Source: Nitrososphaerota archaeon (GTDB taxonomy: Archaea; Thermoproteota; Nitrososphaeria; Nitrososphaerales; Nitrosopumilaceae). Taken from it: a stretch of 64,000 nucleotides of DNA. Location of the stretch: assembly GCA_028867755.1 (NCBI GenBank), contig JAGWFT010000001.1, positions 1 to 64,000 of the forward strand, written 5' to 3'. This document shows positions 2 to 53,211 of this stretch, piece by piece. The notes below the pieces were generated by a model that was given only the letters and a program-made list of their open reading frames with translations, was not told the origin of the DNA and did not search any database. Position numbers and translations under genes: made by a program. How positions within the stretch are numbered: position 1 is the first letter of the stretch; each line of letters starts with the position of its first letter.

Positions 2-1372
2 TATACTGATCCGGAGGTTATTGAAGTAGATAGAAATGGAAACATAGTATGGTCATTTCACTTTTCAAATACACCGTATGTGAGTGATCCAAAGTATAAT
101 GATATTAGAGGAACTGACTGGGGATACTGGACACATACAAACGAAGCTCTTCGACTACCTGACGGTTCTACTTTGATAAGTCCAAGAAATTTCAATATGG
201 TCATAATAGTTGACAAGGATGGCAAAGTTCTCCAAACTTATGGAGATACTTGTTCAAACTGTAAGAATAATTCTACTCAGAACAATAGTTGTGGAGGTAC
301 TAGTGGCAGTGGTGGTATGAGTGGAGGAATTGGTGGCAGTGGTGGTATGAGTGGAGGGTTGAGTTGTGCAGGTATAAACACATTTGCTCAGGTAAGTCCA
401 AAGGTGAATTACTTTTCTGGACAACATAGTCCAATTCCTCTTCCAAATGGAAACTTACTATTTGGTGAGCCAGGGCCTGGAATAGCTGTTGAATTTAACA
501 CTACAACAGACAAAATAGTGTGGCAATGGCCACATGGTGGAAGGCATAGTGGAGTATGGATAAACATACGAGGTGTTGAAAGACTTCCAAATGGAAATAC
601 ACTTGTGTCTGATTCAAATGGCAAAATATTTGAGGTTACTAGAAAGGGAGATATTGTATGGGAGTTGGATTGTACCTGTTACAATCCTAATGGTAAACCA
701 GATCAGTGGCCATTCTTTCAAGCAGAACGAATAAGCTACATGCCTCCAACTTTCACCGTTAAGGATCCTAGCCAAGGTCAGGTTTACAGTGGGGATGTTC
801 CGTTCAACATCACAGAGGGATATGATGTCAGAAAAATTTCTTACAACATCATGGACAATTCAAACAATACGTGGATTGTCCAAAATCAAACGGCACTGGA
901 GAATACATTCAAAGACTCATTGGATCCTCCAACAAAAACATTAGGACCTAGTTCACTAACTCTATCAAGTGGCAGTTATACACTAAGACTGATAGCTAGC
1001 AGTACAGGTTTTGGGTACAAGGATTTTGTTGATCTGAAAAGAATCAACCATGTAACTGAAGACATACAGTTTACTGTAGGGCAATCAATGCAGCAAATAC
1101 CTTCTTGGATTAAGAACAATGCCAAATGGTGGTCAGAGGGTTCTATGGGGGATTCTGATTTTGCAAAAGGTATGCAGTATCTAGTTCAACAGGGAATAAT
1201 CACTGTGCCACCAACGACTCCGGCCTCTCCAAATCCATCTCAGGGCATACCTAGTTGGGTTAAGAACAATGCAAAATGGTGGGCTGAAGGACAAATTCAA
1301 GACTCTGAATTCATCAAAGGGATACAGTATCTAATTGAAAATGGTATTATCAATATACAGCCAAAATCCTAA
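2..1372 (+). CDS. exported beta-propeller (arylsulfotransferase-like) protein, 5'-truncated by window edge
   Basis: The frame is open from base 2 to the left edge, so the true start lies outside; the GTG at 80 is internal. About 457 residues are visible. Propeller-type strands recur, such as EVDRNGNIVWSF, LPDGSTLI, LPNGNTLVSDSNG and EVTRKGDIVWEL, which is the pattern of ASST-like propellers. A Gly/Ser/Met-rich insert with two near-identical 24-nt units (about 300-360) lies between two Cys-containing stretches and interrupts the propeller. A beta-sandwich-like segment follows (about 760-1080). The protein ends in two copies of a Trp-rich repeat (1097-1363; core WxKNNAKWW...GxQYL), also found on three other exported proteins in this window. 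A sulfotransferase reaction is not established, and a surface binding or scaffolding role is as likely. Confidence 0.85.
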   Translation, partial: YTDPEVIEVDRNGNIVWSFHFSNTPYVSDPKYNDIRGTDWGYWTHTNEALRLPDGSTLISPRNFNMVIIVDKDGKVLQTYGDTCSNCKNNSTQNNSCGGTSGSGGMSGGIGGSGGMSGGLSCAGINTFAQVSPKVNYFSGQHSPIPLPNGNLLFGEPGPGIAVEFNTTTDKIVWQWPHGGRHSGVWINIRGVERLPNGNTLVSDSNGKIFEVTRKGDIVWELDCTCYNPNGKPDQWPFFQAERISYMPPTFTVKDPSQGQVYSGDVPFNITEGYDVRKISYNIMDNSNNTWIVQNQTALENTFKDSLDPPTKTLGPSSLTLSSGSYTLRLIASSTGFGYKDFVDLKRINHVTEDIQFTVGQSMQQIPSWIKNNAKWWSEGSMGDSDFAKGMQYLVQQGIITVPPTTPASPNPSQGIPSWVKNNAKWWAEGQIQDSEFIKGIQYLIENGIINIQPKS

Positions 1373-19677: not shown

Positions 19678-21633
19678 CTAGTTTATTGCATGTATCTTAA
19701 TCAAATATTCCACAGTATTGACAAACTCTTGGCCAGAAATTAGGCCAGACGACCACCACATTGCATCGTATTTTAGCCAATTTGGAAGAATCTTTAGTTC
19801 TGCATTAGGTGTTACACTTTTTACGATATTTTGTTTTATCATAGATTGCATTGTCTTGAGAAATTCGGAATTAGATACATTATTTTGAGACCATGATTGT
19901 GCACCGTATTTTACCCATGAGGGAATTGCAGATGAATTGCTAGTCTGATTGTTAATTGCATATGAGTTTCCAGTCTGATTATTAATTTCACTGATTTTGA
20001 CTATTTGGAATCCTGCAGTACGAATCATGTCTATCAAAGCCCCTAGTTTTTCTGTCTGTGAAGAGTCTGGAGAATTTATTTTGATTGTATTATTTGCAAG
20101 TGCATAATCTTGAAAGTTTAGAGTTACAACTGCAAACCCATGACTTTGCATACTAGTTTTGATCTGAGACATTATCATATCATTTGTCATGTATTGCAAA
20201 GTTCCGTTTTCTAAATGATAATAACCGGTAAAGACAGTAGCTGGGATGTTTTGGATTTTACCTGAAAAAGCTGCAGGCACGGTAACATCAGAAATAGAAC
20301 TAACATAATTAATTCCATTATCCTGCATGGCAGGAAAAGTATCTTGATTTACCTTTCCATATGGAGGAACAAAGATTGTGGATGTTGCGCCAAGAACTGA
20401 TGATATTTTGTTTTTAGACTGTTCAAGAAGTAAGGCTTGATAAGATTCATCATATGAAGTGAAATCTTCAAAACTCCATCCATTTATTCCAATGTCAATT
20501 AATCGGTTATCTGAATTTATTTGATTCTTGATACTGTTTGTCAATTTGGAATCATTACCAAATGCATTGGAAATTATACCCAAAGTCAAATCTGCATCTT
20601 TTTGTTTGAATGTGTCCAATATTCCGGTCTGAACACTATCCAGCCAATAATCTTGGATATTATCTAGCCTGAATGCCACACAGTTACAGTTTATGGCTGT
20701 TGATTTTGGAGCAGAAGGAGCAGGTACGATGACTGTGTTTTGGTTTCTTACCATACTGAAATTAAGCTTGGTGCCATCAATTGTAACGCTAGAATCTGAC
20801 CACTTTGAGTTATTTTTGAGATCTATTACGTGAAAAACATAATCACCAACTTTTAGATTATAGAAATATGCTTCGCCTTTAGCATCAACTGGAGACTGGG
20901 AAACTAGGTTTCCATCGCTATCTAACAAATTTACCACAAGAGTGCCAGCTAAAGGCTGGATAGTTGAGGATTGATTATTGTACAACTTTACTGTTACCAA
21001 ACTATTAACTATCGATGGCCAAGGCGTGACAACAGTGATCTCTTGAGCTATTCCAGGAAGTAGAAAAACAGGAGAATGAGAATATGAGAGAGTTTTACCA
21101 ATTTTTACATTAGCTACATAATAATCGCTTTGATCAATGGTGGGAGATATCCAAGATCTCAGGGTTTGTCCTTTTGCATCAGTAGTACCTGTTGCCCAAG
21201 TTTTATTGACATCTGACTTGATTTCAACAGTTGCATTTTCTACAGGAGTGGCTTTGTCATTGTATAATACATTTACACGCATGCCTCCAGACAGCGGAAT
21301 GCTGACATCTAGATTTTGTTGCAATTGTTCAAGATCTACATAACGTACTGCAGCATGCATATCATTTGCATATACTTCAACTTTGTATTGGTGTCCTAAA
21401 GGAAGAGACAGTATATTGAAAGGATTGCCTGTGATTGATGATATTTCTCTGTACGGGGTCGCATTGGTATCTTGATAAATTTTTATTGAGATTGGCCAAT
21501 AATCTGCTCTATCGCCGTTGGTGTAAGTTATATTGACTGCAATTGAGCCGGATGTTTCGGCATAAGCTACAAAGTAAAATGAGCCCAAGACAAAAACAGA
21601 AAGTAGGGCAACAAGGAAACGTCGTTCTATCAT
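19678..21633 (-). CDS. exported polysaccharide-deacetylase-like protein with Trp-rich C-terminal repeats
   Basis: 651 residues from the ATG at 21633, which overlaps the upstream glycosyltransferase stop as ATGA; a longer start at 21660 is less likely. A signal peptide ends near VAYA. Several small beta domains follow, then a NodB-like fold (about residues 320-540). The expected metal site is degraded: the DD pair reads LDN and the His motif reads IGINGWSFEDF with both His absent. The PPYG loop remains. The C-terminus carries two divergent copies of the Trp-rich repeat (WVKYGAQSW and WLKYDAMWW). It probably binds rather than hydrolyses a polysaccharide made by its partner enzyme. Confidence 0.82.
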   Translation of the reverse strand: MIERRFLVALLSVFVLGSFYFVAYAETSGSIAVNITYTNGDRADYWPISIKIYQDTNATPYREISSITGNPFNILSLPLGHQYKVEVYANDMHAAVRYVDLEQLQQNLDVSIPLSGGMRVNVLYNDKATPVENATVEIKSDVNKTWATGTTDAKGQTLRSWISPTIDQSDYYVANVKIGKTLSYSHSPVFLLPGIAQEITVVTPWPSIVNSLVTVKLYNNQSSTIQPLAGTLVVNLLDSDGNLVSQSPVDAKGEAYFYNLKVGDYVFHVIDLKNNSKWSDSSVTIDGTKLNFSMVRNQNTVIVPAPSAPKSTAINCNCVAFRLDNIQDYWLDSVQTGILDTFKQKDADLTLGIISNAFGNDSKLTNSIKNQINSDNRLIDIGINGWSFEDFTSYDESYQALLLEQSKNKISSVLGATSTIFVPPYGKVNQDTFPAMQDNGINYVSSISDVTVPAAFSGKIQNIPATVFTGYYHLENGTLQYMTNDMIMSQIKTSMQSHGFAVVTLNFQDYALANNTIKINSPDSSQTEKLGALIDMIRTAGFQIVKISEINNQTGNSYAINNQTSNSSAIPSWVKYGAQSWSQNNVSNSEFLKTMQSMIKQNIVKSVTPNAELKILPNWLKYDAMWWSSGLISGQEFVNTVEYLIKIHAIN

Positions 21634-23093
21634 ATTCCCACTCGATCCACGCTTGTCCAAGTCATTTCCTTTCTAAATAATTGCTCAAACACAGCTCTAA
21701 TTAAAAGAAAATCAAGTATCTGCTTGAATCCTAGTACCAGAAATACTCCGTAGAGAATCAATTTTGGATCTTCATTATCCATCCTAACAGCCAATGCTGC
21801 TTGGAGGATCTGTAAGACTGAGAAGATAGCAAACACCTCAAGAACAAATATCCCGCCCCCAAAAATTGCGGTATAAGCTGCAGTACCAAGTGTAATGAAC
21901 CCAACAAATGGCATGACAACACTTGAGAATACCATGTATGGAAAGACCAGTCTTTGCAAAAGGCCAAATCGTGGGTTTAACAATGCGTCTGAGTGCCTTG
22001 AGAAAACTTGGAGATTTCCACCATACCATCTCTTTCTCTGTTTGTACAAGTTTTTTATGTTCTCAGGAGCCTCTGTGAACGCGACTGCTTTTGTGCTGCC
22101 AGAGATAGTAAGATTTGTCTTTAAAATCTTTAGTGTAACATCAAAGTCCTCTACAAGCGTGTCTTTATGATAATTTCCAATCTCTTCTAAAACAGTTCTT
22201 TTGAAGGCCCCCAAGGCTCCTGGTACTACTGATATTGAACCAAATACATCTAGTGCTCTTCTTGCAATCTGAATGCCTGCCACATATTCTATTGCTTGGC
22301 AAAATGTGAGCCAGTTTTTTCTATTTCTTACTTTGATGTTTCCTGCAACTGCTGCCACATCCTTGTTCATAGAAAATCCTTTAGCCAAGTGAGTTAATGA
22401 GTCCATTCCAATTATTGTATCTGCATCTACCACTACAATAATTTCCCCCGTTGCATAAGCAAGTCCAAAATTAATTGCACTTGCCTTTCCCCCATTTTCC
22501 TTGTGTAATGCCTTGATCTGTTTTTTGTATTTGTTTATTATTTGAAATGTTTTGTCTTTGCTTCCATCATCTACTGCTATGATCTCTTTATCTGGATATT
22601 TTGTTTCAACAAGTGCTTGGATTGTTCTTTCTATGACTTTTTCTTCATTATACGCAGGGACAATTACTGTTAATCTTGGATATGAATTTGGCTCTAATAT
22701 CGTATTTTCTTTGTATTTACCATACAATGCTAACGGCACAAATAACAATGTGTTCCAAAAAGTAAGTGTCAGGCCCCAGAGTAAAATTGCCTTTACTATA
22801 GATTCTTGCAGGGAATAATTGTCAAAGCCAACAGCAACTCCAAGTGCAATAGGCGCGGTAATGAGAAAAATGAGAAAAAACGATGGAATTTTTTTTCCAT
22901 ATCTGAGTCGTGAGGTAAACCTTCCTTGCAAAGTCATAATCTGATATACAACAACAGCAGAACCAAGACCAATTGCCACCATGCTTATGATCGAGAGTAG
23001 CTGGTATGCCATAACCAAAAGAACTCCAATTATGGCCATTGTTATTACTATTAGTACTGGGTCAAAATGGCGCACGTTTGTCATACTAGCCAT
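21630..23093 (-). CDS. processive family 2 glycosyltransferase, membrane-bound
   Basis: 487 residues. Four N-terminal hydrophobic helices (about 13-30, 33-50, 68-90 and 98-120) precede a GT2 domain. Catalytic features visible are VDDGSKD, the DxD-like VVDADT, TLVEDFD and the processivity motif QRKRW. At least three more helices form the C-terminus. This is the chitin/hyaluronan/PgaC-type synthase layout, which polymerises a sugar while exporting it. Its stop overlaps the start of the deacetylase-like gene (ATGA), so both are translationally coupled. The product is likely an exopolysaccharide; the sugar cannot be told from sequence. Confidence 0.9.
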   Translation of the reverse strand: MASMTNVRHFDPVLIVITMAIIGVLLVMAYQLLSIISMVAIGLGSAVVVYQIMTLQGRFTSRLRYGKKIPSFFLIFLITAPIALGVAVGFDNYSLQESIVKAILLWGLTLTFWNTLLFVPLALYGKYKENTILEPNSYPRLTVIVPAYNEEKVIERTIQALVETKYPDKEIIAVDDGSKDKTFQIINKYKKQIKALHKENGGKASAINFGLAYATGEIIVVVDADTIIGMDSLTHLAKGFSMNKDVAAVAGNIKVRNRKNWLTFCQAIEYVAGIQIARRALDVFGSISVVPGALGAFKRTVLEEIGNYHKDTLVEDFDVTLKILKTNLTISGSTKAVAFTEAPENIKNLYKQRKRWYGGNLQVFSRHSDALLNPRFGLLQRLVFPYMVFSSVVMPFVGFITLGTAAYTAIFGGGIFVLEVFAIFSVLQILQAALAVRMDNEDPKLILYGVFLVLGFKQILDFLLIRAVFEQLFRKEMTWTSVDRVGI

Positions 23094-28979: not shown

Positions 28980-31900
28980 TCATCTGAACGGTATTGGGTC
29001 TATGCCCATGTGACTTGTATTTCCAGTAGTGCTCATCATTTCATTATCTATCAGATACTGCACTGCCTGCACAAACTCTTGGTCCGAGATGGCTCCTTCT
29101 GCCCAAAACCTTGCATCATTTTTTACCCATACCGGAATGGTCTCAGATGATGATACAGTACCTTCCTGCTGCGGCACTGTTATAATTCCATCTTGCACCA
29201 AGTACTGCACCCCCACCAAAAAGTTCTTGTCATTTATCTTTCCGTCAGACCACCATTTTGCATTGTTTTTCACCCAGACTGGGACTGGCATCTTGTCTTG
29301 TAACAGATTTGGGCTCAAAGACAGCGTCTGGTCTTTTACAGTACCTGGAGTGTTAGTTGCAACAAGATCTGAGAAAGTAGAGTTTGCCTTTTGTGTGGAT
29401 ACAGAATCTGTCACCCGGAATGCACCAACTATCTGCGTGTCCTGCTTGTAGGCTTCCTTGTCCCATGTTCTTATAATAAGATTTGACGTGTCCATGTGGT
29501 TTGCAAATATAATCTCAAAGTCAACTTGTAGTTTATTGTTCACGGTATTGGTGTTAATGTTGACTGACTTGACAAACCCGTCTGGGTCTGTTACCGTTGT
29601 TGTTCCACCATCATATGCTATTATGGTATTGGCATCTGATATCTGGAGATCGCTTCCATGCAGATTAGAAAACAGTGAGACTCCTTGCACGTCATCAGGC
29701 CCATAGTTCTCGTATATCAGCAGTTTTAGACTAGCTGGCTTTCCCACATGAAACGTTGATGTTGGAATGGTATCAGTGTAATTTTCTAGCTTGAAGCCCT
29801 TGCCGTCAATGGTAATAGGATACTCGTCTGATGCAAACTGTGTACCTGATAGTGTGGGTGCTGTAGGAGCATTGTTTGCCCCAAGGATTGCAAGCGCTGC
29901 AATCACACCGCCGATTGCAAACTTGGACGTGTGATCGTCTTGCGCACTTGCCAGAAATAGACACGACGAGAGCTGCGTTACCTGCGTTGATAGCTGGTCT
30001 CCGCTGTCTGCAAATGTTCCGTCATGCTGCCTGTCGTGAAAGACTGAGACATTTGGTATTCCGTTTGTAAATGTTATCTGCTGTGATACAGGCAGGTTCT
30101 TGTTTGCTGTATTGATATCATCGCATGTAAACTCGAATGAAAAAGTACACTGTGCACCAGTACTGCATGCCCCGTTTTGCAGTGAGATATCAACTGGCGT
30201 TCCAAGAAATTGTAGTGTAGAGCCTGCAGCAGAACCGGAAGGTGCTGTTGTGGGAGCTGTAGTCTTGGTATAAGTTACAGTCTGGGCAGTATTTGACCCG
30301 ATTGTTGTCTGGGCTACGATGCCAGACGGCAGTGTGATAACTGCAGTTCCACCTCCTGCCACTGGCACTGCTACTGTAAATGTGCCAAAGCTTCCAGAGA
30401 GCGGTGGCGATACAGAAGTTGATGCAGAAGACGGGGGCGAGGTGTTGCTAGTAAGGCTGTCAGAGCCTGTCCCATGTACTGTTACTATAGTAGTACCAAT
30501 TACTGCAGGGTTGCTACCATCTACTGTATTTATTGTAACATTGAACAGGCTTGGTGTTATCCATGTTCCAGTATATGTCGCAGACCCAAGTGATGGGGTA
30601 AAGGAAAATATGTTTTGCACCTCTGTCTGGCTCACAGTACCTGTACCTCCTGGCTCATTTGTTGGTGCTGAGAATCTAATCAGTAGTGTGTCACCTGCAT
30701 GAAATGTTGTGGCACCATTGGCAGGATCGTTTGCCACAAATGCTGTGATAAATGGTATTGGTGGAGATGAGAAGCTGCCAGAAAGTACCGGAGATGGATT
30801 TGTGGAAACTTGTGCAGTGGCAGCAGCATTTGCAAGACCCGAGTTTGCAATTGGTGTGAATACCAGATTGTTTGATACTGCAACAGGTCCTCCACTTGAG
30901 CCTGCTGTTATTACAAGTGTTGATGGGTCTGACCATGTTCCGGTAAAGTCTGTGCCAAGGTTTGCAGGACACGTGTTGCCAAGAGTAGACGAGCATGAAA
31001 ACAGCAAGTTGAAATTTGCAGGCGTCACACTGTTCTGCTTTCCGCCAAACTTTTGGTTTGTGGGCTGTGAGAAGTGAATTGTTATACTGTTGCCGCTAAA
31101 AAATGTCGTTCCAGAACTTCCTGCAGCAACTATAGATGATATCCTGGGTGATACTCCTGCAGTTACTTGATCTGATACTGCAAGTGATTCTGACAAACTA
31201 GCAGAGGAGGGATTGGATGACACTGTGATTGATGTGGTGTATTCTACTACACGGTTGTTGTTACCGTCAGCCACCCACAGATTGCCAGAAAAGTCAAATG
31301 ATATATCATTTGGAGTATTTAGGCCTCCCTGAGATGCGACAGCTGTATTGGTGGTAAACTGGTTTGTACCGGCAGTCTGTCCTATCTCTAGTGCTGCATT
31401 ATTTCCATCAGAACATGACGATGTAGTACAGGTGTATTCCAGTACCCTGTTGTTGTTATCGTCAACCACCCACATGTTGCCAGAATGGTCAAATGATATG
31501 GAAACTGGAAGATTAAGACCGCTCTGGGTGGTGACACCTGTACTTGAAGTAAACTGGGTTGCACCGGCAGGCTGGCCTAGCTCTAATGCCGCATTATTTC
31601 CATCAGCACATGACGATGTTGCAGTACAGGTGTACTCTAGTACCCTGTTATTCTTAGAGTCAACCACCCACATGTTGCCAGAAGAGTCAAAGTCCATAGT
31701 CTCTGGATTATTCAGGCCACTCTGGGTGGTAGCAGCTGTATTTGAAGTAAACTGGCTTGTACCAGCAGGCTGGCCTAGCTCTAGTGCCGCATTGTTGCCA
31801 TTAGTACATGATGATGTTGCTGTGCATGTGAACTCTAGTACCCTGTTGCTGAAAGTGTCAGCAACCCAGAGGTTGTCAGAATGGTCAAATGAGAGAGCGA

Positions 31901-34900
31901 TTGGATTGCGAAGACCACTCTGGGTTGTGACAAAATTATTTGTAGTAAACGCAGTACCGCTTGGCTGGCCTAGCTCTAGTGCTGCATTATTTCCATCAGC
32001 ACATGACGATGTTGCAGTACAGGTGTACTCTAGTACCCTGTTATTTTTTTTATCAACCACCCACAGGTTGCCAGAAAAGTCAAACGATATAGCAACTGGA
32101 CCAGAAAGACCACTCTGGGATATGGCAGATGTATTGGTAGTAAACTGGTTTGTACCGGCAGACTGGCCTAGCTCGAGCGCCGCACTTGGATTACTTGATG
32201 CAAGCGAGGCCTTGGTGTACTCTAGTACCCTGTTGTTGCTAAAGTCAGCCACCCACAGGTTGCCTGAAGTGTCAAATGAGAGAGCCTCTGGATCATTTAG
32301 GCCATTCTGAGATATTGCAGAACCGCCAGATGTAAAACCACTCTGACCTATTACAAGTGAAGCTGACTGTCCTGTTGTAAACGGAACTGTAGTTATTGCA
32401 ATGACTCCTGAATTGTCAGTTGCCTTTGCATTTATGGTGTGAACTCCGTTTGATAGACTCGATGTAGTAAATGTCCACGATGTTGTGCCAGTAGCAAGTG
32501 AGTATGTGCCACCATCAACTGAGACTTCTACTTTTTGTACGCCAGACGCCGTGTCAGATGCAGTTCCTGACACTGTTACGGTTGCTGTTGTGAAGAGCTG
32601 CGTGTTTGTAGGCGATGTGATTGCAATCAGAGGTGGTGGTGGGTCTCCCTCAGCTATATTGGTTCCTGTAAGTGATGATACCGGAACTGTGCCGCAGACC
32701 TTGGTACCTGTTGTGGATACAATACTAGTAGCACTAACCCATGCACTTCCGTTCCAGTATTGTAGTATGGTGGATGCATCGGCATTGGAATCGTTGATGC
32801 ATATCTGCGCATTTCCATCTGTAACTCCACATGATACCTGCACATCGCTGAAGACCTGGCTTACAAGAGTTGATGCCCCAACTGTGCTGTCTTGCAAGCC
32901 AAGCTGCTCTGTATTGATACATAATGGTGTGTTGTTTGATGCAGCTGAGCCGCTTATCGTTACCTTTACACCTGTTGTTGAAGTCTGGTCTGATGTTACA
33001 CCTCCTGATGTGATGCTTGTAGTTACACCTGTATTTGCAAGAACATTTTTGTTATACTCTAGTACCCTGTTGCTGAAAGTGTCAGCAACCCAGAGGTTGC
33101 CAGAAGAGTCAAATGAGAGAGCCTGTGGACTATTGAGACCGCCCTGAGATGCAACAGCTGTATTTGTAGTAAACTGGCTTGTACCAGCAGGCTGGCCTAG
33201 CTCTAGTGCCGCATTGTTGCCATTAGTACATGATGATGTTGCTGTGCATGTGTATTCTAGTACCCTGTTGTTGTTAGAGTCAGCTACCCACATGTTGCCA
33301 GAAGAGTCAAATGAGAGAGCAGTTGGGGAGTCAAATCCGTTTGCAGATACAGAACCTCCTTGATCTGGATTTCCCTGATTAAAACCAGATTGCCCTAATA
33401 CCACAGTAGCTGCTTCGCCTGTAGTAAATCCACCCCCCTTTGGAAATTCCACTACACGGTTGTTTTGATCTTCTACAACCCATAAGTTACCGGCTGAATC
33501 AAATGCAAGACCAGGAGGTTCCCTTAATCCAGTTGCAGCTGAAGAACCTCCTTGATCTATACATTCGCCAAGACCGTTACCGACGAGGTTGTTTCCTAGC
33601 GATATAGTTGCAGCCTCACCATCAGAAGATGATGTAAATCCAGAACCCTTTGGAAATTCCAATACACGGTAGTTACACTTATCTGCCACCCAGAGATTAC
33701 CCGATGAATCAAATGCAAGACCAGTTGGAGTAGAAAGTGAACTTGCAGTATCACCGTTCAAACCTCCACCTTCATTTTCAGTCCCATGCATAAAGTCAGC
33801 CTGCCCTAATACTACGCTAGCAGCTTCCCCACTTGTAAACCCAGTACCCTTTGGAAATTCTAGTACGCGGTTATTCCCACCATCTGAGATCCATAGATTT
33901 CCTGAAGAGTCAAATGAGAGAGCAGTTGGATTACTAAGACCGCTCTGGGTGGTGGTACCAGTACTGGTAGTAAAGCTTGACTGGCCTATAACTAGAGTCG
34001 CATTTGGATTGTTGGATGCAAGCGAGGCCTTGGTGTACTCTAATATCCTGTTGTTGTTAGCGTCAGTCACCCACAGGTTACCAGAAGAATCAAATGCCTG
34101 AATACTTGGACCATGGAGACCGCTCTGGGTGGTGGCATGTCCACTGGTAGTAAAGATTGGCTGTCCTATAACTAGAGCTGCATTTGGACCATTGGATGCA
34201 AGCGAGGCCTTGGTGTATTCTAGTATCCTGTTGCTGTTTTTGTCAGCCACCCACATGTTGCCAGAAGAGTCAAATGAAAGACCATGTGGAAAATTAAGAC
34301 CGCTCTGGGTGGTGACACCTGTATTAGAAGTAAACTGGCTTGCACCGGCAGGCTGGCCTAGCTCTAGTGCCGCATTGTTGCCATTGGCACATGATGATGT
34401 TGCTGTACATGTATACTCTAGTACTCTGTTGTTACTACCGTCAGTCACCCACAGGTTGCCAGAAGAATCAAATGTCAATGACTGTGGACTATTAAGACTA
34501 CTCTGGGTGATGGGAGATGAAGCAGTGGAAGTAAACTGGCTTGTACCAGATGTCTGGCCTAATTCAAGTGTCGCACTGCCGCCATTAGTACATGATGATG
34601 TTGCTGTACATGTATACTCTAGTACTCTGTTATTGTTTTGATCAACCACCCACAGGTTACCTGAAGAGTCAAATGAAAGACCATGTGGAAAATTAAGCGA
34701 ACTTGCTGATATTCCACCATCGTTGGTATTGCCTGTAGTAAACCCATGTGCATTTGTCTGGCCTAGCTCCAGTGCCGCATTTGGATTGTTGGATGCAAGC
34801 GAGGCCTTGGTGTACTCTAATATCCTGTTGTTACTACCGTCAGTCACCCACAGGTTGCCAGAAGAATCAAATGCAGAACCGGTTGGACCATTGAGACCAC

Positions 34901-35072
34901 TCTGGGTGGCGATAGCTGCGCCGGTACCAAAGAGTGGTTGCCCTATCTCACTGTGTGCATTTTGACCGATAACAAATGCATGCGAGTCTTGAAAATGTAA
35001 AAATACCAAGACAGGAACCAAGACTGCAAGTAAGAACAGCTTGCTAAAATTTTTAATCAATTTGGCAGCCAT
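28980..35072 (-). CDS. giant exported NHL-type beta-propeller protein
   Basis: 2030 residues with an N-terminal signal peptide (hydrophobic 13-27, ending near SHAF). Sixteen blades share FDSSGNLWVxDxxNNRVLEY: ten in the first ~700 residues and six between about 960 and 1330. Between the groups lies an insert with Ig-like domains (ITSPTNTQLF, and VSGTASD motifs). A second beta-domain region (1350-1700) follows, then a C-terminal stretch ending in two Trp-rich repeats (WVKNNAKWW and WVKNDARFW). Many blades carry a Cys pair in TCTATSSC. The blades are very alike at the DNA level, suggesting recent expansion. Likely a surface binding or scaffold protein; no catalytic site seen. Confidence 0.88.
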   Translation of the reverse strand: MAAKLIKNFSKLFLLAVLVPVLVFLHFQDSHAFVIGQNAHSEIGQPLFGTGAAIATQSGLNGPTGSAFDSSGNLWVTDGSNNRILEYTKASLASNNPNAALELGQTNAHGFTTGNTNDGGISASSLNFPHGLSFDSSGNLWVVDQNNNRVLEYTCTATSSCTNGGSATLELGQTSGTSQFTSTASSPITQSSLNSPQSLTFDSSGNLWVTDGSNNRVLEYTCTATSSCANGNNAALELGQPAGASQFTSNTGVTTQSGLNFPHGLSFDSSGNMWVADKNSNRILEYTKASLASNGPNAALVIGQPIFTTSGHATTQSGLHGPSIQAFDSSGNLWVTDANNNRILEYTKASLASNNPNATLVIGQSSFTTSTGTTTQSGLSNPTALSFDSSGNLWISDGGNNRVLEFPKGTGFTSGEAASVVLGQADFMHGTENEGGGLNGDTASSLSTPTGLAFDSSGNLWVADKCNYRVLEFPKGSGFTSSSDGEAATISLGNNLVGNGLGECIDQGGSSAATGLREPPGLAFDSAGNLWVVEDQNNRVVEFPKGGGFTTGEAATVVLGQSGFNQGNPDQGGSVSANGFDSPTALSFDSSGNMWVADSNNNRVLEYTCTATSSCTNGNNAALELGQPAGTSQFTTNTAVASQGGLNSPQALSFDSSGNLWVADTFSNRVLEYNKNVLANTGVTTSITSGGVTSDQTSTTGVKVTISGSAASNNTPLCINTEQLGLQDSTVGASTLVSQVFSDVQVSCGVTDGNAQICINDSNADASTILQYWNGSAWVSATSIVSTTGTKVCGTVPVSSLTGTNIAEGDPPPPLIAITSPTNTQLFTTATVTVSGTASDTASGVQKVEVSVDGGTYSLATGTTSWTFTTSSLSNGVHTINAKATDNSGVIAITTVPFTTGQSASLVIGQSGFTSGGSAISQNGLNDPEALSFDTSGNLWVADFSNNRVLEYTKASLASSNPSAALELGQSAGTNQFTTNTSAISQSGLSGPVAISFDFSGNLWVVDKKNNRVLEYTCTATSSCADGNNAALELGQPSGTAFTTNNFVTTQSGLRNPIALSFDHSDNLWVADTFSNRVLEFTCTATSSCTNGNNAALELGQPAGTSQFTSNTAATTQSGLNNPETMDFDSSGNMWVVDSKNNRVLEYTCTATSSCADGNNAALELGQPAGATQFTSSTGVTTQSGLNLPVSISFDHSGNMWVVDDNNNRVLEYTCTTSSCSDGNNAALEIGQTAGTNQFTTNTAVASQGGLNTPNDISFDFSGNLWVADGNNNRVVEYTTSITVSSNPSSASLSESLAVSDQVTAGVSPRISSIVAAGSSGTTFFSGNSITIHFSQPTNQKFGGKQNSVTPANFNLLFSCSSTLGNTCPANLGTDFTGTWSDPSTLVITAGSSGGPVAVSNNLVFTPIANSGLANAAATAQVSTNPSPVLSGSFSSPPIPFITAFVANDPANGATTFHAGDTLLIRFSAPTNEPGGTGTVSQTEVQNIFSFTPSLGSATYTGTWITPSLFNVTINTVDGSNPAVIGTTIVTVHGTGSDSLTSNTSPPSSASTSVSPPLSGSFGTFTVAVPVAGGGTAVITLPSGIVAQTTIGSNTAQTVTYTKTTAPTTAPSGSAAGSTLQFLGTPVDISLQNGACSTGAQCTFSFEFTCDDINTANKNLPVSQQITFTNGIPNVSVFHDRQHDGTFADSGDQLSTQVTQLSSCLFLASAQDDHTSKFAIGGVIAALAILGANNAPTAPTLSGTQFASDEYPITIDGKGFKLENYTDTIPTSTFHVGKPASLKLLIYENYGPDDVQGVSLFSNLHGSDLQISDANTIIAYDGGTTTVTDPDGFVKSVNINTNTVNNKLQVDFEIIFANHMDTSNLIIRTWDKEAYKQDTQIVGAFRVTDSVSTQKANSTFSDLVATNTPGTVKDQTLSLSPNLLQDKMPVPVWVKNNAKWWSDGKINDKNFLVGVQYLVQDGIITVPQQEGTVSSSETIPVWVKNDARFWAEGAISDQEFVQAVQYLIDNEMMSTTGNTSHMGIDPIPFR

Positions 35073-46063: not shown

Positions 46064-47176
46064 TTATTTTATTATCTGTTTTTGTGATAGATATGTTAGC
46101 ATATCGCCAAATTCTTGCCTTGATATCTCTTTGTTTGATAGCCACAGGGCAGGCTTTTCAACCCATTGTGGTATGCTGTTTCCTTTCATATCAAAATCTT
46201 CAAGTAGGTTTTCTGTACTATTGTAGTCTTGAGGATACATAATCCAGTTTGCAACGTCGTCTGATAATGTTGTAGGGTCATCTTTTTGTAGCAATAATAG
46301 CATTTCTTTGCTTATAAGAAGATGATATTCAGGATAACAGTTTAGCATGGTATAGTTGTTTTTATGATAAAAATTCCAGTCATTACAGGATACATCATAC
46401 TCGAATCTTGAGTTGTCTGGATTCCAACCAAATCCATTTTTGATATCAACGTTGGGGTAGCCATGACCGTGTACTAGCGTTATAGTGTTGTTGTTATAGT
46501 TTACAGTTACCCGTGCATAAAGTGCATTAGGATAGAGAAAAACGACATCTTTGTGACTAGTTATTGCATCAAACTCTTTTTGCGTAACGTATTCGTTGTG
46601 CAGTACTATGACTCGTTTGTATTGCTTTAAAATATCTGGATTTTTATCAACATCTTGGTCCTTGACATATGGATAATCAAGCAACTTTAAGATCAATCCC
46701 CCAATGATGCTTGATGCCTGAACGCCATTTACTTTGTCAGGTATTGGTACTGTCAGGCAACTGGCATCACATTGTTTGCTGTAGTAATAGTAGAAACCGT
46801 GATCCCCATATGCAGCTTGGGTAAAACTTGGATAGATGAACACAATGTCTTTTGATTTATTTGCCAATCCTATATGCGAATACAGATCACTGAGCTCAGG
46901 CTTTAATGACAATGAAAGTGATATTTGGTTTCCTTGGTTGTCGTATGTTGGGACAATATTGAAAAGCATTCTATCAGATGGAATTTGTAAAACCTGTTTT
47001 TGTCCTTCTGAGTTGGAGACAATCTCCAGATAGCCCTGTGTTTGATTTTGTACATTGAATGCATTTGTATAAGCATATTCTGGAGTCTGCGCAATAGCTA
47101 CATTTGGTATCATTGAAAATAACAGAGCAGCAAAAAGAAATACAGATAACTCTAGTTTGTGCCCGTACAACCCCAT
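46064..47176 (-). CDS. exported protein with one C-terminal Trp-rich repeat
   Basis: 370 residues. A signal peptide (hydrophobic 10-25, ending near AIAQ) is followed by an alpha/beta extracellular domain rich in Tyr, Asp and Asn, with four Cys (paired in CDASC) and a His-rich loop (LVHGHGY). Segments such as VIVLHNEYVTQKEFDAI and GVQASSIIGG look enzymatic but match no family I can name. The C-terminus carries a single divergent copy of the Trp-rich repeat (WVEKPALWLSNKEISRQEF). It lies between the oxidase operon and the S-layer gene. Confidence 0.78.
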   Translation of the reverse strand: MGLYGHKLELSVFLFAALLFSMIPNVAIAQTPEYAYTNAFNVQNQTQGYLEIVSNSEGQKQVLQIPSDRMLFNIVPTYDNQGNQISLSLSLKPELSDLYSHIGLANKSKDIVFIYPSFTQAAYGDHGFYYYYSKQCDASCLTVPIPDKVNGVQASSIIGGLILKLLDYPYVKDQDVDKNPDILKQYKRVIVLHNEYVTQKEFDAITSHKDVVFLYPNALYARVTVNYNNNTITLVHGHGYPNVDIKNGFGWNPDNSRFEYDVSCNDWNFYHKNNYTMLNCYPEYHLLISKEMLLLLQKDDPTTLSDDVANWIMYPQDYNSTENLLEDFDMKGNSIPQWVEKPALWLSNKEISRQEFGDMLTYLSQKQIIK

Positions 47177-47397: not shown

Positions 47398-50300
47398 CTA
47401 CTGTACTGTGATCGTTGTACTCAATGGTGGCGACAGTGCGTTTGGATTGTCAATGCTCTGCCATACAAAGATTTGAGCAGTGTATGTGCCAGCTGCTGAC
47501 GGAGTCCAAGACTGTGCCGGGTTGAGTGATTGACCTGCAGATAGTGTACCTGTGATCCATGAGAGTGATACAGTCACGCCGTTGCCATCCTGTATTTGTA
47601 CAAGATATGCAAATGGCTGATCAGTATTCTGGCCGTTTGCCAAATCAGCAGTCACTTGGATCTGCTGACCGACTTTGACGTTACCAGTGATTGCGTTACC
47701 AAACGAGTCAACTATTCTTGGGTTGGTAGCCGGCGCTCTTTCGAGTGGAGGCACAACTGTTCCAATGAATGTTGTCGCGGTTAGACGCAACTGATCGCTT
47801 GGTGTGTATGGCGGTGGCAAGGTTCTATCCTTGTATTCGCCAGTTACTGTGTCACCTTCTGAAACGTGCAACCTGTTTCCGGATGAACCGAAGTTGGTTG
47901 TAAAGTACACAGTACCTTGGAAGATACCGGTATCTTGGCCTGTCTCTGTCATGGTGAGTTTGATACCACCTGAATCAGAGTCTGACCACACGTTGGTGTC
48001 GAATTTATCGATAGCCTTTGGATTGAGGTTCATGTCTGGGTCTACGATTTGCAATACTCCTTGACCGTTAGCTGGGTAGCTTGACTGCAACCATGAGATT
48101 TCACCAATGTTCCATCTGATTAGAGCAGAACCAGTTACTGTTTGATCTCTTGTGAATTCAAACGATACTGATACGCCGTCAGAATCTTCTGCTGGTAGGA
48201 ATCCGTCAGTTGGACCACATTGAGTACTAGCTGAGCAGGTTCCTGCCAAATTGCCAATGTTTCCAGTTGGATTCTGACCTGGGTTTCCGCCATCAACACC
48301 ACCAACGCCTTTTAGATTGGCATCGCCTGTGAGGATGACATAGCCAGTAAAGATACCTGTGTCTACTCCGGTCTCAGTTAGCGTGTAGTAGATTTGGTGG
48401 CCTCTTGTAGAGACAATCACGTTATCTTCTCCGCCATTGTTACCGATAGTATCAATCAGGTTTGGATCAAAGTTGTGATCTGGTGCGACTACGGTTATAT
48501 AGACACGATCAGTCCAGGTGTATACCTTCTGGTCGAGTTCAACTGTTGCACCAAAGTTAGATGTGTAGATTGTCAGCTCAATGTCTTGGCTGTTGCTACC
48601 CACCGTTTTGGCACCTGCTGGACCCCAGTCAGTATATTCTAGGTTGATCTGTTCGCCTCTTTCAAGTTGAGTGGTACCAAGTTGTTTTGGAATCTTGATA
48701 ACTGATTGGAAGATGCCTGTGTCTTTACCTGTCTCTACAAATGTTGAGGGCTTGGCATCAAAGGCTGCCTGTTGACCACCGAGTTGGCCCATGGTACCCT
48801 TGAATGCATGCGAATCCCACTCAATTAGATCAAGTGGTAAAGTCTCAGCCTGTTGTGAGTCTAGGTTAAAGTCTGGTTCTACCAAGGTTAAGATCATGTC
48901 TGAACCTATGATGTAGACAGACTTGTCTGATTGTAGTACACCGTTTCTTAAGTCAAATGTTGCAGAGTCTGTAACAGTTTGTGGTTTGCCCGATGAGTCA
49001 CTCTGATCAAAGTATGTCACAGTGAGTACATCACCCTGTCTTACACAGTAATTCATGACTGTTGGATTTGCTGTAACACCGTTTTGTGTGTTAGCAACCA
49101 CAAGAATTCTGTTTTGGATAAGGTTACTAAATCCAGAGCCTCCACTGATGGTTTGGTCCCAGTTATCTACCTGTGGACAATCGTTGTTACCTGCTACTGG
49201 AGCAGGGCCGTCAGTCAATTCTATTGGAAGATCTGTTTGGAAGATTCCAGCACCTGGTGTAATCTCTTGCATTGGACCAAGATCAGGCACAGAGTTCCAT
49301 GTAGGACTATTCTGTGGTGGTAGCTGAGCTGCTCCAATATCAATGATGTGACCTGGTGTTTTAGTTGGGCCTCCAGCAGTTGCCAATAGTACTGATTGAC
49401 CAGATCGTGAGATCTGGAATGCCACTGGACCGTGTGTCAGTGATGTCTGTGTTCCTACAAGGGTTCCCATAACACCTACGTTGATGAAATTGGTTCCTGT
49501 AGCTGCAGTGGTATAGTCTGGGTCATTGACTCTTGTGTGTACAAGGACTTTGCCTTGTGGCAATACGTTTGTACTGATGAGTCCTGTTCCAGATACATCC
49601 CTATGAAGTGGGAATACACCTGACTGGCTTGCTTTTCCTTGTACTGTAGCTGGATTAAAGCTAGCTGTACCTGCAGTGGCACCGACAGTACCAAATGGTA
49701 CTGGGTACACAGATTTGTCTAGTTTAACTGAACCAGTGTTACCTCTTATACCAGCATTATCTGATATCTCTACTAGCTTACCAGATTCATCACGGAAGTC
49801 AACATAGTTGACCTTCATGTTTTGGCCGTTGGCTACGACACCTTGTATAGTACCACTAAGATTCTGACAAATTTGGTCTGGAATCTCGAAGGTACCTGTG
49901 AAGATGCCTGAGCCGGCAGCAGTTTCAACTAATGTGAATCCTGTTGCTGCAAAGCCTCCTGGGGCTCCTAGAGGTGTTAGACCACCAGTAAATGTTGGAC
50001 AGGTGGCAGTTCCAGCAATACCCGGAATGACTGTGTTAGTCCATCGGATGTCTTGCTGGCCAAATTGTATATCAAGCATTCTGCCAATTGCTTGGCCGTT
50101 TGAATACAAACCAAGTCCAGACTTACCGACTGTATCGGTGGCTGGATCTATTGGGGCTCCTCCTGTTGCTGGTGCGACTGTGTTGTATATTACAACCAAG
50201 TCGTTGTTGGTGTTAAGATCTGGATCGTTAACTGTAACTGTTACAGTGTCTCCTACCTTGTATGTCTTCTGGTCAAATGATACAGTTCCAGAGTGAGTTG

Positions 50301-53211
50301 GGATATCTTGCTGTGCAGATACCTGTACGTTGACACCATCAGCACCTAAATCAAAGTAGGTTATCTGTGGTGCTCGTGCCTCAGACTGGAGCATATCTTG
50401 GATTGCTGGGAACAGAACATCGTGATTGATTGTTCTCAATTGTGAGTATGTAGCTGGATCAAGTATATTCACTTGGTTGAGCATCAAGAACTGTGTAGTT
50501 CCTGTGAACACACCAGTGTTGTCACCTGTCTCTTCAAGCTCCCATCTGTAAACTCCGTTGTTGATTCTCTGAGTATTGTCAGTACCGTCACCTACGATAC
50601 CAATTGAGAAGAAGTCAGTAACCATAGGTATTCCTGTGGTTTCCGATGCTCCTCCGCCAATTGGGAAGTTAGGTAAGGTAAGTGTATTACCAACACCTGG
50701 GATGGTGAATACATACAAGAATCCAACGACATCGTTTGGTGACTGCGTTGCAGCTTGGAAGATTCTTCCGTTAACTACTGAGCCACTATCAATTACACCT
50801 GGTGTGTAAAAGTCATTGGCAAATGCAGTTTCACCGTGTGATGCCAATAAGTTAGCTGGTACTGGTTGTGTACCGTTTAGGTTCACAAAGTCCTCTAAAT
50901 TAGTGTCATTTACAAGAGAGAAGCCTACTACACCGTTACCTAGATTTGCTAAGCTTGGTGCAGCGCCACCTACGAGGTTATAGAATGTTGTCGCACCTGT
51001 AACGGGGTTCCTAACGTTATTTGCTGGACCGTGTATCAAGTATATGTTTACACTTGATATCGGTGTACCAGTTGCACCGTTGAGGCTAGTGAAAGACCTC
51101 AAGTCAAAGTTAAGGAAGTTGAAACCATGGAATCTTGTGACTGGATTCGCGCCGCCAGCGGCGTTTCCGCCTCTTGGGTCGTTAATCGTGTTCAACAATT
51201 GTTGCATAGTTCCACCCGTATCAACAAGTATACCACCGCCGCTCTGGAGGGTCAAAAGAGCTGTTGGACCAGAGAATGCTGGTAATACTCTATTACTAAA
51301 TTGCTCATCTACTCCCAGATCTGGGTCTGTAGCTGAAGTCAAACTAGTAAAGCTAGTAAATCCAGCGAAGCTGACACCTGGCACTACGTGAGTAGTATCA
51401 CCAGGCGCTGGTGGTGTCAATTGGATAAGGCCGTTTCCGGCTGTACCTATATGTCCACCTGCGACGAGGTTAAAGTTGGGTGATAATGAAGTTGGATCAG
51501 ATGCCCCGGTAAGACATGTTGGACATCCTGCGTTCAATGAGAACGGAGTTCCAAGCTTCATTGTGCTAATTCTTAACACATTGGAGTCATAGTCATTGAG
51601 ATGTTCAGTTAGTTTGCTGTTCCTGTTTTGATCCATATCAGTAAGTGTTACTGGAATTCTTTGTCCTGATGCCCATGTTCCATTGGTTGCAGTCATTGTG
51701 ATTGAACCAAATGCAAAGCCGCCTACGATACTTCCAGATATGTCATTATATTTGAAAGTGGCAGACTGGCCTCTAATGGATCCTTGTGCAGGATATGCAC
51801 TACCAGTCGGAGGAGATTCCTCTGATGGTGAGAGTGTTACAATTCCTGCAATTCTTGCACCATCCCAGTCACCGAAGACACCAGTGTTTACACCACCCTG
51901 TTCAGCAAATGTAATCATCTCAGAACCTTTAGCCAAGTTTAGGCCGTTGTCCTGGACTTGTAACGGAGTACCTCTTGTACCGGAGTTACATTGATTTGCT
52001 AGACCAGAGTTACAGACAAGTTTTTCTCTTCCAAAGTTTTGAAAGTCTACAACTCTCACGCCTTGGGCGGTTGGGTTGAATGTGAACTTGCCGTTGTGGT
52101 TAAAGTTGAATGATGTAAGGTTACCAATGAGGTTCTGCATTGCAGGTGAAGCTGCTGGTGCACTTGGCATCAAGGTTGCTCCCCCGACACCGCCTGTTAT
52201 ACCGTCAGCACGTGCGTTTGCATTTCTGTCAAATGCTTGATAATACAATGTATTGTTATTTGCATTTGCACCCCATGTCCATACATCATCTTCTGTTGGG
52301 TCTACGTTTAGCTGTGGATCGTTCATTGTCAAGAATACTTGGGTGTTCTCTGGATAGGATGTTCTATCCGGAGTAACTGTGATCAGGTTGCTTGGAATTC
52401 TGTCAAAAGTCAGGTTGACGATTTGATCGCCACCTGCTGCTGAGTAGTCAACGACTACTGTTTGTGGAATTCCAGAGAAATCGTATAGCTGTATAACTGG
52501 CCAGGCTGCTTGAAGGTTCGTAGATGCTGCAAATCCAGCACCGCCACCGTTTAATGTCTTGTTCTCTCGAACTACATTTTGAACAGATGCAGTGTCTGTG
52601 TTTGCGGCATACGAGTTACTAGTAAAGGTACACACGTTATTCAATGTACCAACGGTTGTAATTCCGAATGGTGAGATTGGATTAACGGTACCTGCTACGT
52701 TAGTTTCAGATGCATTACCTAGTAGTGCTCCATTAAATGGATTTCGTGCAACTGTAAAGCCCTTGGTATCTGTCATAGTCCAGCCGGATCTAAGGCCTGC
52801 TGCGTTAGAGGTTGGACCACAGAAATAACCAAAGTTAAGACCTTGACCACCTACTGGTGCGGTCTTGCCTGCAATTTCAGCTTGATTTCTATCAGCAAAG
52901 TATCCATACCAGTTACCGTCTGTACCCTGTGCCATTCTCAGTCTTTTACCACCGATGGTTACGATAGGTTCACCATATTGTTGGTCGATCCTGTTTATGT
53001 TAGGATCAGATACCACAACTTGGATTACCTGAGGACCAGCAAAGTAGTTATTGTACTGGGAATTTTCGGCAGAGACAAACAAGTTTGGATGTGAAGCTAC
53101 TTGAGCGTGTGCTGCTGGCATTGCGTTTGGCAATGCAAATGCAGCGGTGCTCAGAAGTAGGATCGTTAATAGTGATAGACTAGTTACTTTACGTAATATG
53201 TTGTTGTACAT
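47398..53211 (-). CDS. major S-layer protein
   Basis: 1937 residues with a signal peptide cleaved after AHA (34-36). Mature sequence opens with NLFVSAENSQYNNYFAGPQV, characteristic of thaumarchaeal S-layer proteins. Tandem Ig-like domains each open with a DPxxN-type motif (VNDPDLN, VAPDHNFD, VEPDFNLD, VDPDMNLN) and close with ETGxDTGIFxG; about seven are visible. Many Asn-x-Ser/Thr sequons suggest heavy glycosylation. There is no C-terminal PEFG tail or membrane helix. Negatively charged S-layers may concentrate ammonium near the cell. The glycan-assembly operon lies just upstream on the same strand. One base composition style throughout suggests high expression. Confidence 0.94.
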   Translation of the reverse strand: MYNNILRKVTSLSLLTILLLSTAAFALPNAMPAAHAQVASHPNLFVSAENSQYNNYFAGPQVIQVVVSDPNINRIDQQYGEPIVTIGGKRLRMAQGTDGNWYGYFADRNQAEIAGKTAPVGGQGLNFGYFCGPTSNAAGLRSGWTMTDTKGFTVARNPFNGALLGNASETNVAGTVNPISPFGITTVGTLNNVCTFTSNSYAANTDTASVQNVVRENKTLNGGGAGFAASTNLQAAWPVIQLYDFSGIPQTVVVDYSAAGGDQIVNLTFDRIPSNLITVTPDRTSYPENTQVFLTMNDPQLNVDPTEDDVWTWGANANNNTLYYQAFDRNANARADGITGGVGGATLMPSAPAASPAMQNLIGNLTSFNFNHNGKFTFNPTAQGVRVVDFQNFGREKLVCNSGLANQCNSGTRGTPLQVQDNGLNLAKGSEMITFAEQGGVNTGVFGDWDGARIAGIVTLSPSEESPPTGSAYPAQGSIRGQSATFKYNDISGSIVGGFAFGSITMTATNGTWASGQRIPVTLTDMDQNRNSKLTEHLNDYDSNVLRISTMKLGTPFSLNAGCPTCLTGASDPTSLSPNFNLVAGGHIGTAGNGLIQLTPPAPGDTTHVVPGVSFAGFTSFTSLTSATDPDLGVDEQFSNRVLPAFSGPTALLTLQSGGGILVDTGGTMQQLLNTINDPRGGNAAGGANPVTRFHGFNFLNFDLRSFTSLNGATGTPISSVNIYLIHGPANNVRNPVTGATTFYNLVGGAAPSLANLGNGVVGFSLVNDTNLEDFVNLNGTQPVPANLLASHGETAFANDFYTPGVIDSGSVVNGRIFQAATQSPNDVVGFLYVFTIPGVGNTLTLPNFPIGGGASETTGIPMVTDFFSIGIVGDGTDNTQRINNGVYRWELEETGDNTGVFTGTTQFLMLNQVNILDPATYSQLRTINHDVLFPAIQDMLQSEARAPQITYFDLGADGVNVQVSAQQDIPTHSGTVSFDQKTYKVGDTVTVTVNDPDLNTNNDLVVIYNTVAPATGGAPIDPATDTVGKSGLGLYSNGQAIGRMLDIQFGQQDIRWTNTVIPGIAGTATCPTFTGGLTPLGAPGGFAATGFTLVETAAGSGIFTGTFEIPDQICQNLSGTIQGVVANGQNMKVNYVDFRDESGKLVEISDNAGIRGNTGSVKLDKSVYPVPFGTVGATAGTASFNPATVQGKASQSGVFPLHRDVSGTGLISTNVLPQGKVLVHTRVNDPDYTTAATGTNFINVGVMGTLVGTQTSLTHGPVAFQISRSGQSVLLATAGGPTKTPGHIIDIGAAQLPPQNSPTWNSVPDLGPMQEITPGAGIFQTDLPIELTDGPAPVAGNNDCPQVDNWDQTISGGSGFSNLIQNRILVVANTQNGVTANPTVMNYCVRQGDVLTVTYFDQSDSSGKPQTVTDSATFDLRNGVLQSDKSVYIIGSDMILTLVEPDFNLDSQQAETLPLDLIEWDSHAFKGTMGQLGGQQAAFDAKPSTFVETGKDTGIFQSVIKIPKQLGTTQLERGEQINLEYTDWGPAGAKTVGSNSQDIELTIYTSNFGATVELDQKVYTWTDRVYITVVAPDHNFDPNLIDTIGNNGGEDNVIVSTRGHQIYYTLTETGVDTGIFTGYVILTGDANLKGVGGVDGGNPGQNPTGNIGNLAGTCSASTQCGPTDGFLPAEDSDGVSVSFEFTRDQTVTGSALIRWNIGEISWLQSSYPANGQGVLQIVDPDMNLNPKAIDKFDTNVWSDSDSGGIKLTMTETGQDTGIFQGTVYFTTNFGSSGNRLHVSEGDTVTGEYKDRTLPPPYTPSDQLRLTATTFIGTVVPPLERAPATNPRIVDSFGNAITGNVKVGQQIQVTADLANGQNTDQPFAYLVQIQDGNGVTVSLSWITGTLSAGQSLNPAQSWTPSAAGTYTAQIFVWQSIDNPNALSPPLSTTITVQ

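Follow-up and report, generated by a model that had tools for sequence, protein, structure and literature searches.

How ammonia-oxidizing archaea, which are among the most abundant microbes of ocean and soil and drive nitrification, hold the nutrient-binding proteins and enzymes that they export is largely unknown, and solute-binding proteins must stay near their membrane transporter. In the stretch of DNA analysed here (the window, the first 64 kb of its contig), four proteins end in the same tryptophan-rich repeat, raising the question of what this unit does for its carriers. The initial annotation had counted seven copies on hosts with no other domain in common. Translation, a genome search and an HMM all returned these copies as two, two, two and one in four frames (Table 1), and Pfam bore out the dissimilarity of the hosts, giving ASST-like, polysaccharide deacetylase, NHL/Big_7 and DMFA2_C-like assignments. 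The count of seven holds for the window; a whole-genome search with one copy as query found 37 copies in about 22 genes of the 1.64-Mb genome. The single unit of host 4 scored 3e-19 in the HMM search, but this copy is itself part of that model.

Table 1. Repeat units, their host genes and the S-layer gene in the window
Feature	Positions	Strand	Evidence
Host 1, ASST-like (arylsulfotransferase-type) domain and C-terminal repeat pair, 5'-truncated by contig end	2..1372	+	Pfam
Repeat unit 1, host 1 (IPSWIKNNAKWW...GIITV)	1097..1207	+	genome search E=1.4e-15; HMM 76 bits
Pro/Ser/Thr-rich inter-unit linker, host 1	1208..1246	+	translation
Repeat unit 2, host 1 (IPSWVKNNAKWW...GIINI)	1247..1360	+	genome search; HMM 75 bits
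Host 2, exported polysaccharide deacetylase	19678..21660	-	PF01522, E=3.3e-9
Repeat unit 2, host 2	19681..19788	-	genome search E=5e-7; HMM
Repeat unit 1, host 2, divergent	19822..19926	-	genome search E=2.9e-6; HMM
Host 3, 2030-aa exported NHL-repeat / Ig (Big_7) protein (propeller host)	28980..35072	-	translation, Pfam
Repeat unit 2, host 3	29034..29138	-	genome search
Repeat unit 1, host 3	29175..29285	-	genome search
Host 4, exported, weak DMFA2_C match	46064..47176	-	translation, Pfam
Single divergent unit, C-terminus of host 4	46070..46174	-	E=0.12 with one-sequence query
N. maritimus S-layer protein homologue, candidate partner, not a repeat host	47398..53211	-	PDB 8c8k, E=0

The unit is about 35 residues long, with the consensus IPxW[IV]KNxAxWWxxGxIxDxxFxxGIQYLIxxGII. 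Conservation across 166 copies falls on Trp, Phe and Ile positions and on Asn/Gln positions: P2 is present in 100%, W4 in 98%, W12 in 91%, F22 in 89%, I1 in 86% and A9 in 84%, while position 6 is basic in 93% (K in 79%, R in 14%). We catalogued 94 host frames from eight genomes, some of them cut or broken; 71 carry two units, 22 carry one and a single frame carries three. Linkers between units span 9-17 aa, most commonly 13-15, and the usual module is two units plus a short linker, about 85-90 residues. Likeness between hosts is 48% for the second unit and 38% for the first, and mean net charges of the units are about -1.5 and -2.0. Structure prediction, which the initial annotation had called for, was run with AlphaFold2 on a tandem pair and gave four helices (5-15, 21-33, 55-65 and 71-83) with a mean pLDDT of 86 and a pTM of 0.73. 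Each unit is accordingly predicted to be a two-helix hairpin, and the tandem pair a double hairpin. A prediction for the full-length PhnD host (pLDDT 45) was set aside. In several single-copy hosts (L043, L044, L130, L136 and host 4 of the window), a conserved LLxxLGIxGxxIPxW stretch precedes the unit; this stretch may be a degenerate first unit.

Chance or a compositional artefact was ruled out as the origin of the repeat by reversed and shuffled controls. Among 2138 frames from the fetched loci, 93 match the repeat profile at E<=1e-3 (best about 2e-43) and the identical frames reversed or shuffled give no match at that threshold; since these loci were picked for their matches, the control tests chance similarity and not frequency. 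We surveyed the class at the same threshold with a profile built from 31 copies of the window's own genome. All 90 sampled Nitrosopumilaceae genomes (16 genera) were positive, with 4-46 copies each, and none of 60 sampled genomes from other families of the class contained the repeat at E<=1e-3; the family of Nitrososphaera viennensis seems to lack it in this sample. A sample of 300 genomes of the phylum gave 44 positives among 44 Nitrosopumilaceae and, outside the family, one marginal partial match (E=9.5e-4, positions 15-37); ten genomes outside the family, searched at E<=10, yielded short weak fragments only. We also scanned an 84,980-species set with a tighter alignment of the copies. Among the matches listed, the best 80 from named genomes belonged to Nitrosopumilus, Nitrosotalea, Nitrosotenuis, Nitrosarchaeum, Nitrosopelagicus and unnamed thaumarchaea, together with two contigs that look misbinned. 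These names are the basis for calling the family Nitrosopumilaceae; G040, a genome of the window's genus, agrees in match coordinates with Candidatus Nitrosotalea devanaterra (LN890280.1), which puts the window in Nitrosotalea. The confinement to Nitrososphaerota that the initial annotation had envisaged was thus found in a stricter form: as far as sampled, the repeat appears confined to one family within that group, the Nitrosopumilaceae.

Occurrence in bacteria was considered and rejected: contigs L151 (Brocadia) and L216 (Proteobacteria) carry thaumarchaeal-looking genes around the repeat, such as that of an ammonium transporter next to a repeat host, and seem to be misbinned. Searches of plasmids and phages by tblastn returned nothing relevant. 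One half of an IMG/VR contig (L149, 1-7139) holds tailed-phage structural genes and the other half a thaumarchaeal ABC transporter for phosphonate whose binding protein bears the repeat; this contig is probably a chimeric assembly.

The hosts are varied in kind. Their Pfam domains include MG2, NHL, polysaccharide deacetylase, TPR with matrixin M10, pentapeptide, plastocyanin, PEBP, DUF192, phosphonate-binding and other solute-binding folds, Lon_C, DUF4344 metallopeptidase, metallo-beta-lactamase, YHYH, 3D and BNR. The two host groups that occur most widely, with 10 and 7 members across the eight genomes, gave no Pfam match in the representatives scanned. The commonest host family, about 550 aa long and often with HGLGGDQAPPI after the signal, was found in 7 of the 8 catalogued genomes (L037 640-2415 (+), L092, L100, L102, L105, L115, L118 and L141). 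Placement had been described as always C-terminal, which is true of the four window proteins but not of the family as a whole: 66 of the 94 frames have the repeat at the C-terminus, mostly flush with the protein end, 20 have it directly behind an N-terminal signal and 8 have it internally.

We assessed signal peptides from hydropathy and A-x-A patterns rather than with a dedicated predictor. An N-terminal hydrophobic segment is present in 86 of the 94 frames, none of which has a second span, and most of the other 8 are truncated at a contig end, broken or extended too far upstream. Every host with a readable N-terminus begins with a signal-like segment, which agrees with the earlier claim that all hosts are exported; for host 1 export is not checkable because its N-terminus lies beyond the contig end. 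We compared the hosts with 463 genes from 464 kb of their own genome (the window and 20 evenly spaced stretches). In this sample, 77 of 115 non-hosts with an N-terminal segment have further spans, a figure that includes ordinary polytopic membrane proteins, and the 44 genes with a single segment include all 6 complete hosts (p=5e-7). A-x-A patterns are weakly enriched in hosts (36/86 versus 8/38 other single-segment proteins, p=0.03), and a lipobox was looked for in the hosts and none was found. Cytoplasmic hosts scattered at random, one of two outcomes that the initial annotation had set against its own reading, were not seen. Together with the spread across genomes, these sequence comparisons strongly support a family-specific portable module of exported proteins.

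A restriction to one family, to export-type proteins and often to the very C-terminus would also suit an export or sorting signal read by a dedicated secretion or processing machine. The hosts, however, already have a conventional signal-like segment, and N-terminal, C-terminal and internal placement is unlike that of known terminal sorting signals. PEFG-CTERM (archaeosortase, TIGR04296) resembles the repeat in that it labels exported proteins of these archaea for sorting to the surface, with about 20 proteins in the window's own genome at E<=0.1, but it consists of a C-terminal motif and a membrane span, neither of which the repeat hosts have, and repeat-free families have it too. Membership of the hosts in this system was rejected: P[EQ]FG occurs in no host, and a comparison of 71 located hosts with the listed PEFG-CTERM proteins gave no protein in common, so that the two sets do not overlap. 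We regard a sorting signal as very improbable.

The main argument for retention comes from homologues of the hosts. The window's own genome encodes a DUF192 protein with the repeat and a paralogue without it. Repeat-free DUF192 homologues, from the family and from outgroup genomes, have an N-terminal hydrophobic, anchor-like segment, which in those of the family is joined almost directly to the domain with no clear cleavage site; the repeat version combines two units with a signal that ends in ALAQ. Three loci of this set (L246, L255 and L256) were uninformative, a neighbouring or antisense frame having been extracted. The PhnD-type binding protein has a signal and one unit in 7 of 7 orthologues (63-100% identity to the query), and distant PhnD-like proteins (L279, L280 and L281, from G011, G019 and G111) lack the repeat and carry a membrane anchor at the N-terminus. 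Two PhnD-like proteins of a related family (L282 and L283) show neither the repeat nor an obvious uncleaved anchor, and the exchange of anchor for repeat is therefore not universal. PEBP is cytosolic in 13 genomes, and the form with a signal, a repeat pair and PEBP was found only in G015 (L284). The module thus seems to appear where a membrane anchor is missing and to travel with export, and the exchange among homologues favours surface retention.

On these grounds we consider it probable that the repeat serves the Nitrosopumilaceae as a portable module for retention at the cell surface that does without a membrane span. The surface role that the initial annotation had proposed gains from the conservation across the family, the single signal-like segment with no other span and the replacement of anchors in homologues; retention itself and the binding partner are what we infer. 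The module would be fused to either end of signal-bearing proteins that have no other visible anchor and, after export, would bind an envelope component without crossing the membrane, holding its hosts in the pseudo-periplasm or at the S-layer. The cargo retained would comprise solute-binding proteins, proteases, cupredoxins, propellers and polysaccharide deacetylases.

The repeat corresponds to no described family in the resources searched, and a match to a characterized domain, the second outcome that the initial annotation had set against its reading, did not arise. Pfam and NCBIfam contain no family above the curated cut-off, a PDB sequence search gave no significant match (best E=0.08) and Foldseek found none in PDB (E<=0.001) or BFVD, small helical models being weakly discriminating in such searches; a literature search for the motif letters found no paper printing the motif. 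The SLH domain (PF00395), which binds pyruvylated secondary cell-wall polysaccharide, is likewise a small helical repeat that occurs in tandem at the termini of diverse exported proteins, and the repeat stands in tandem on exported proteins in the same way (71 of 94 frames, with signal-like N-termini). Membership of the SLH family was nevertheless rejected. None of 31 units matches the SLH profile significantly (a single one at E=0.16), the window's own genome with its 37 copies gives no hit to the SLH model at E<=10, and hhalign of the repeat against a two-SLH alignment, built from six plasmid loci of non-pathogenic bacteria, gives a probability of 1.3-3%. The repeat also lacks the GYPDGTF and TRAE motifs and comes as one or two units, never as three full ones. 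By analogy, the module may work like SLH domains without being one, holding in the envelope being known for SLH domains and proposed for the repeat.

Retention without a span might instead be achieved by Trp-rich amphipathic helices lying in the archaeal membrane interface, with no receptor protein. Membranes of the related repeat-free families are comparable to those of the Nitrosopumilaceae, which counts against such a peripheral anchor, as do the net acidic units and the conserved pattern and confident hairpin model, which fit a folded core. Tryptophan and the conserved basic position 6 are nonetheless typical of interfacial helices, and there is a precedent in the same archaeal family: NmPin, the N. 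maritimus parvulin, attaches to the outer face of the membrane via a lysine patch, with neither span nor lipid (PMC4922055). In NmPin the patch is on the enzyme itself and there is no separate portable module, and it contrasts in charge with the repeat. A membrane-interface anchor is on balance unlikely.

In the window, a gene for a membrane GT2 glycosyltransferase (21630-23093, minus strand) overlaps the start of the repeat-bearing deacetylase gene; the two make up a PgaC/PgaB-like pair, which suggests that an exopolysaccharide is made at the surface. The presence of polysaccharide deacetylases among the hosts, one of them beside this GT2 synthase, and the conserved aromatic and Asn/Gln positions are what one would expect of a carbohydrate-binding module, which would guide enzymes to polysaccharides, external or the cell's own, and not serve general retention. 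We think this improbable, as the Lon-type protease, DUF192, PEBP, phosphonate-binding protein, cupredoxin and metallopeptidase hosts have no evident polysaccharide role. Paired units, placement at either terminus and very diverse hosts are also compatible with dockerin-like docking to some non-S-layer protein scaffold, by which exported proteins would be assembled into complexes; no scaffold or cohesin-like partner came to light in these analyses, which were centred on the repeat itself, and we give this reading similarly little credence.

For a retention module, we tentatively favour the Nitrosopumilus-type S-layer protein, or the glycans on it, as the partner. Host 4 lies directly downstream of the S-layer gene; in G015, the relative of this host (L136) and the S-layer gene are on separate contigs. 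The C-terminal half of the S-layer homologue, used as query, gave strong matches in the Nitrosopumilaceae genomes searched, with 52-74% identity over nearly the full query in most members and the weakest matches in the fragmented G118; outside the family it gave weak partial matches or none. This co-distribution of repeat and S-layer protein fits docking and is indistinguishable from shared family ancestry, and no docking site is visible on the S-layer protein. The S-layer structure paper leaves anchoring open and suggests that the last domain binds the envelope (PMC11153153). G046 has a pair of S-layer-like frames (G046:C1:1042528-1044971), each of 410 aa and equal in score, arranged back to back on opposite strands; this may be a palindromic artefact of assembly.

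The Nitrosopumilaceae may, although we put this forward as a conjecture, have their own non-covalent form of surface display, in which a hairpin-pair tag docks on the family-specific S-layer lattice as a scaffold. One tag is common to 2 to about 25 exported proteins per genome; if docking on the S-layer is true, that scaffold would keep nutrient-binding proteins and exoenzymes beside the cell and would offer a natural means of displaying proteins there. A recognizable tag would allow part of the surface proteome of these archaea to be listed from sequence alone, and would place dozens of uncharacterized proteins in the envelope.
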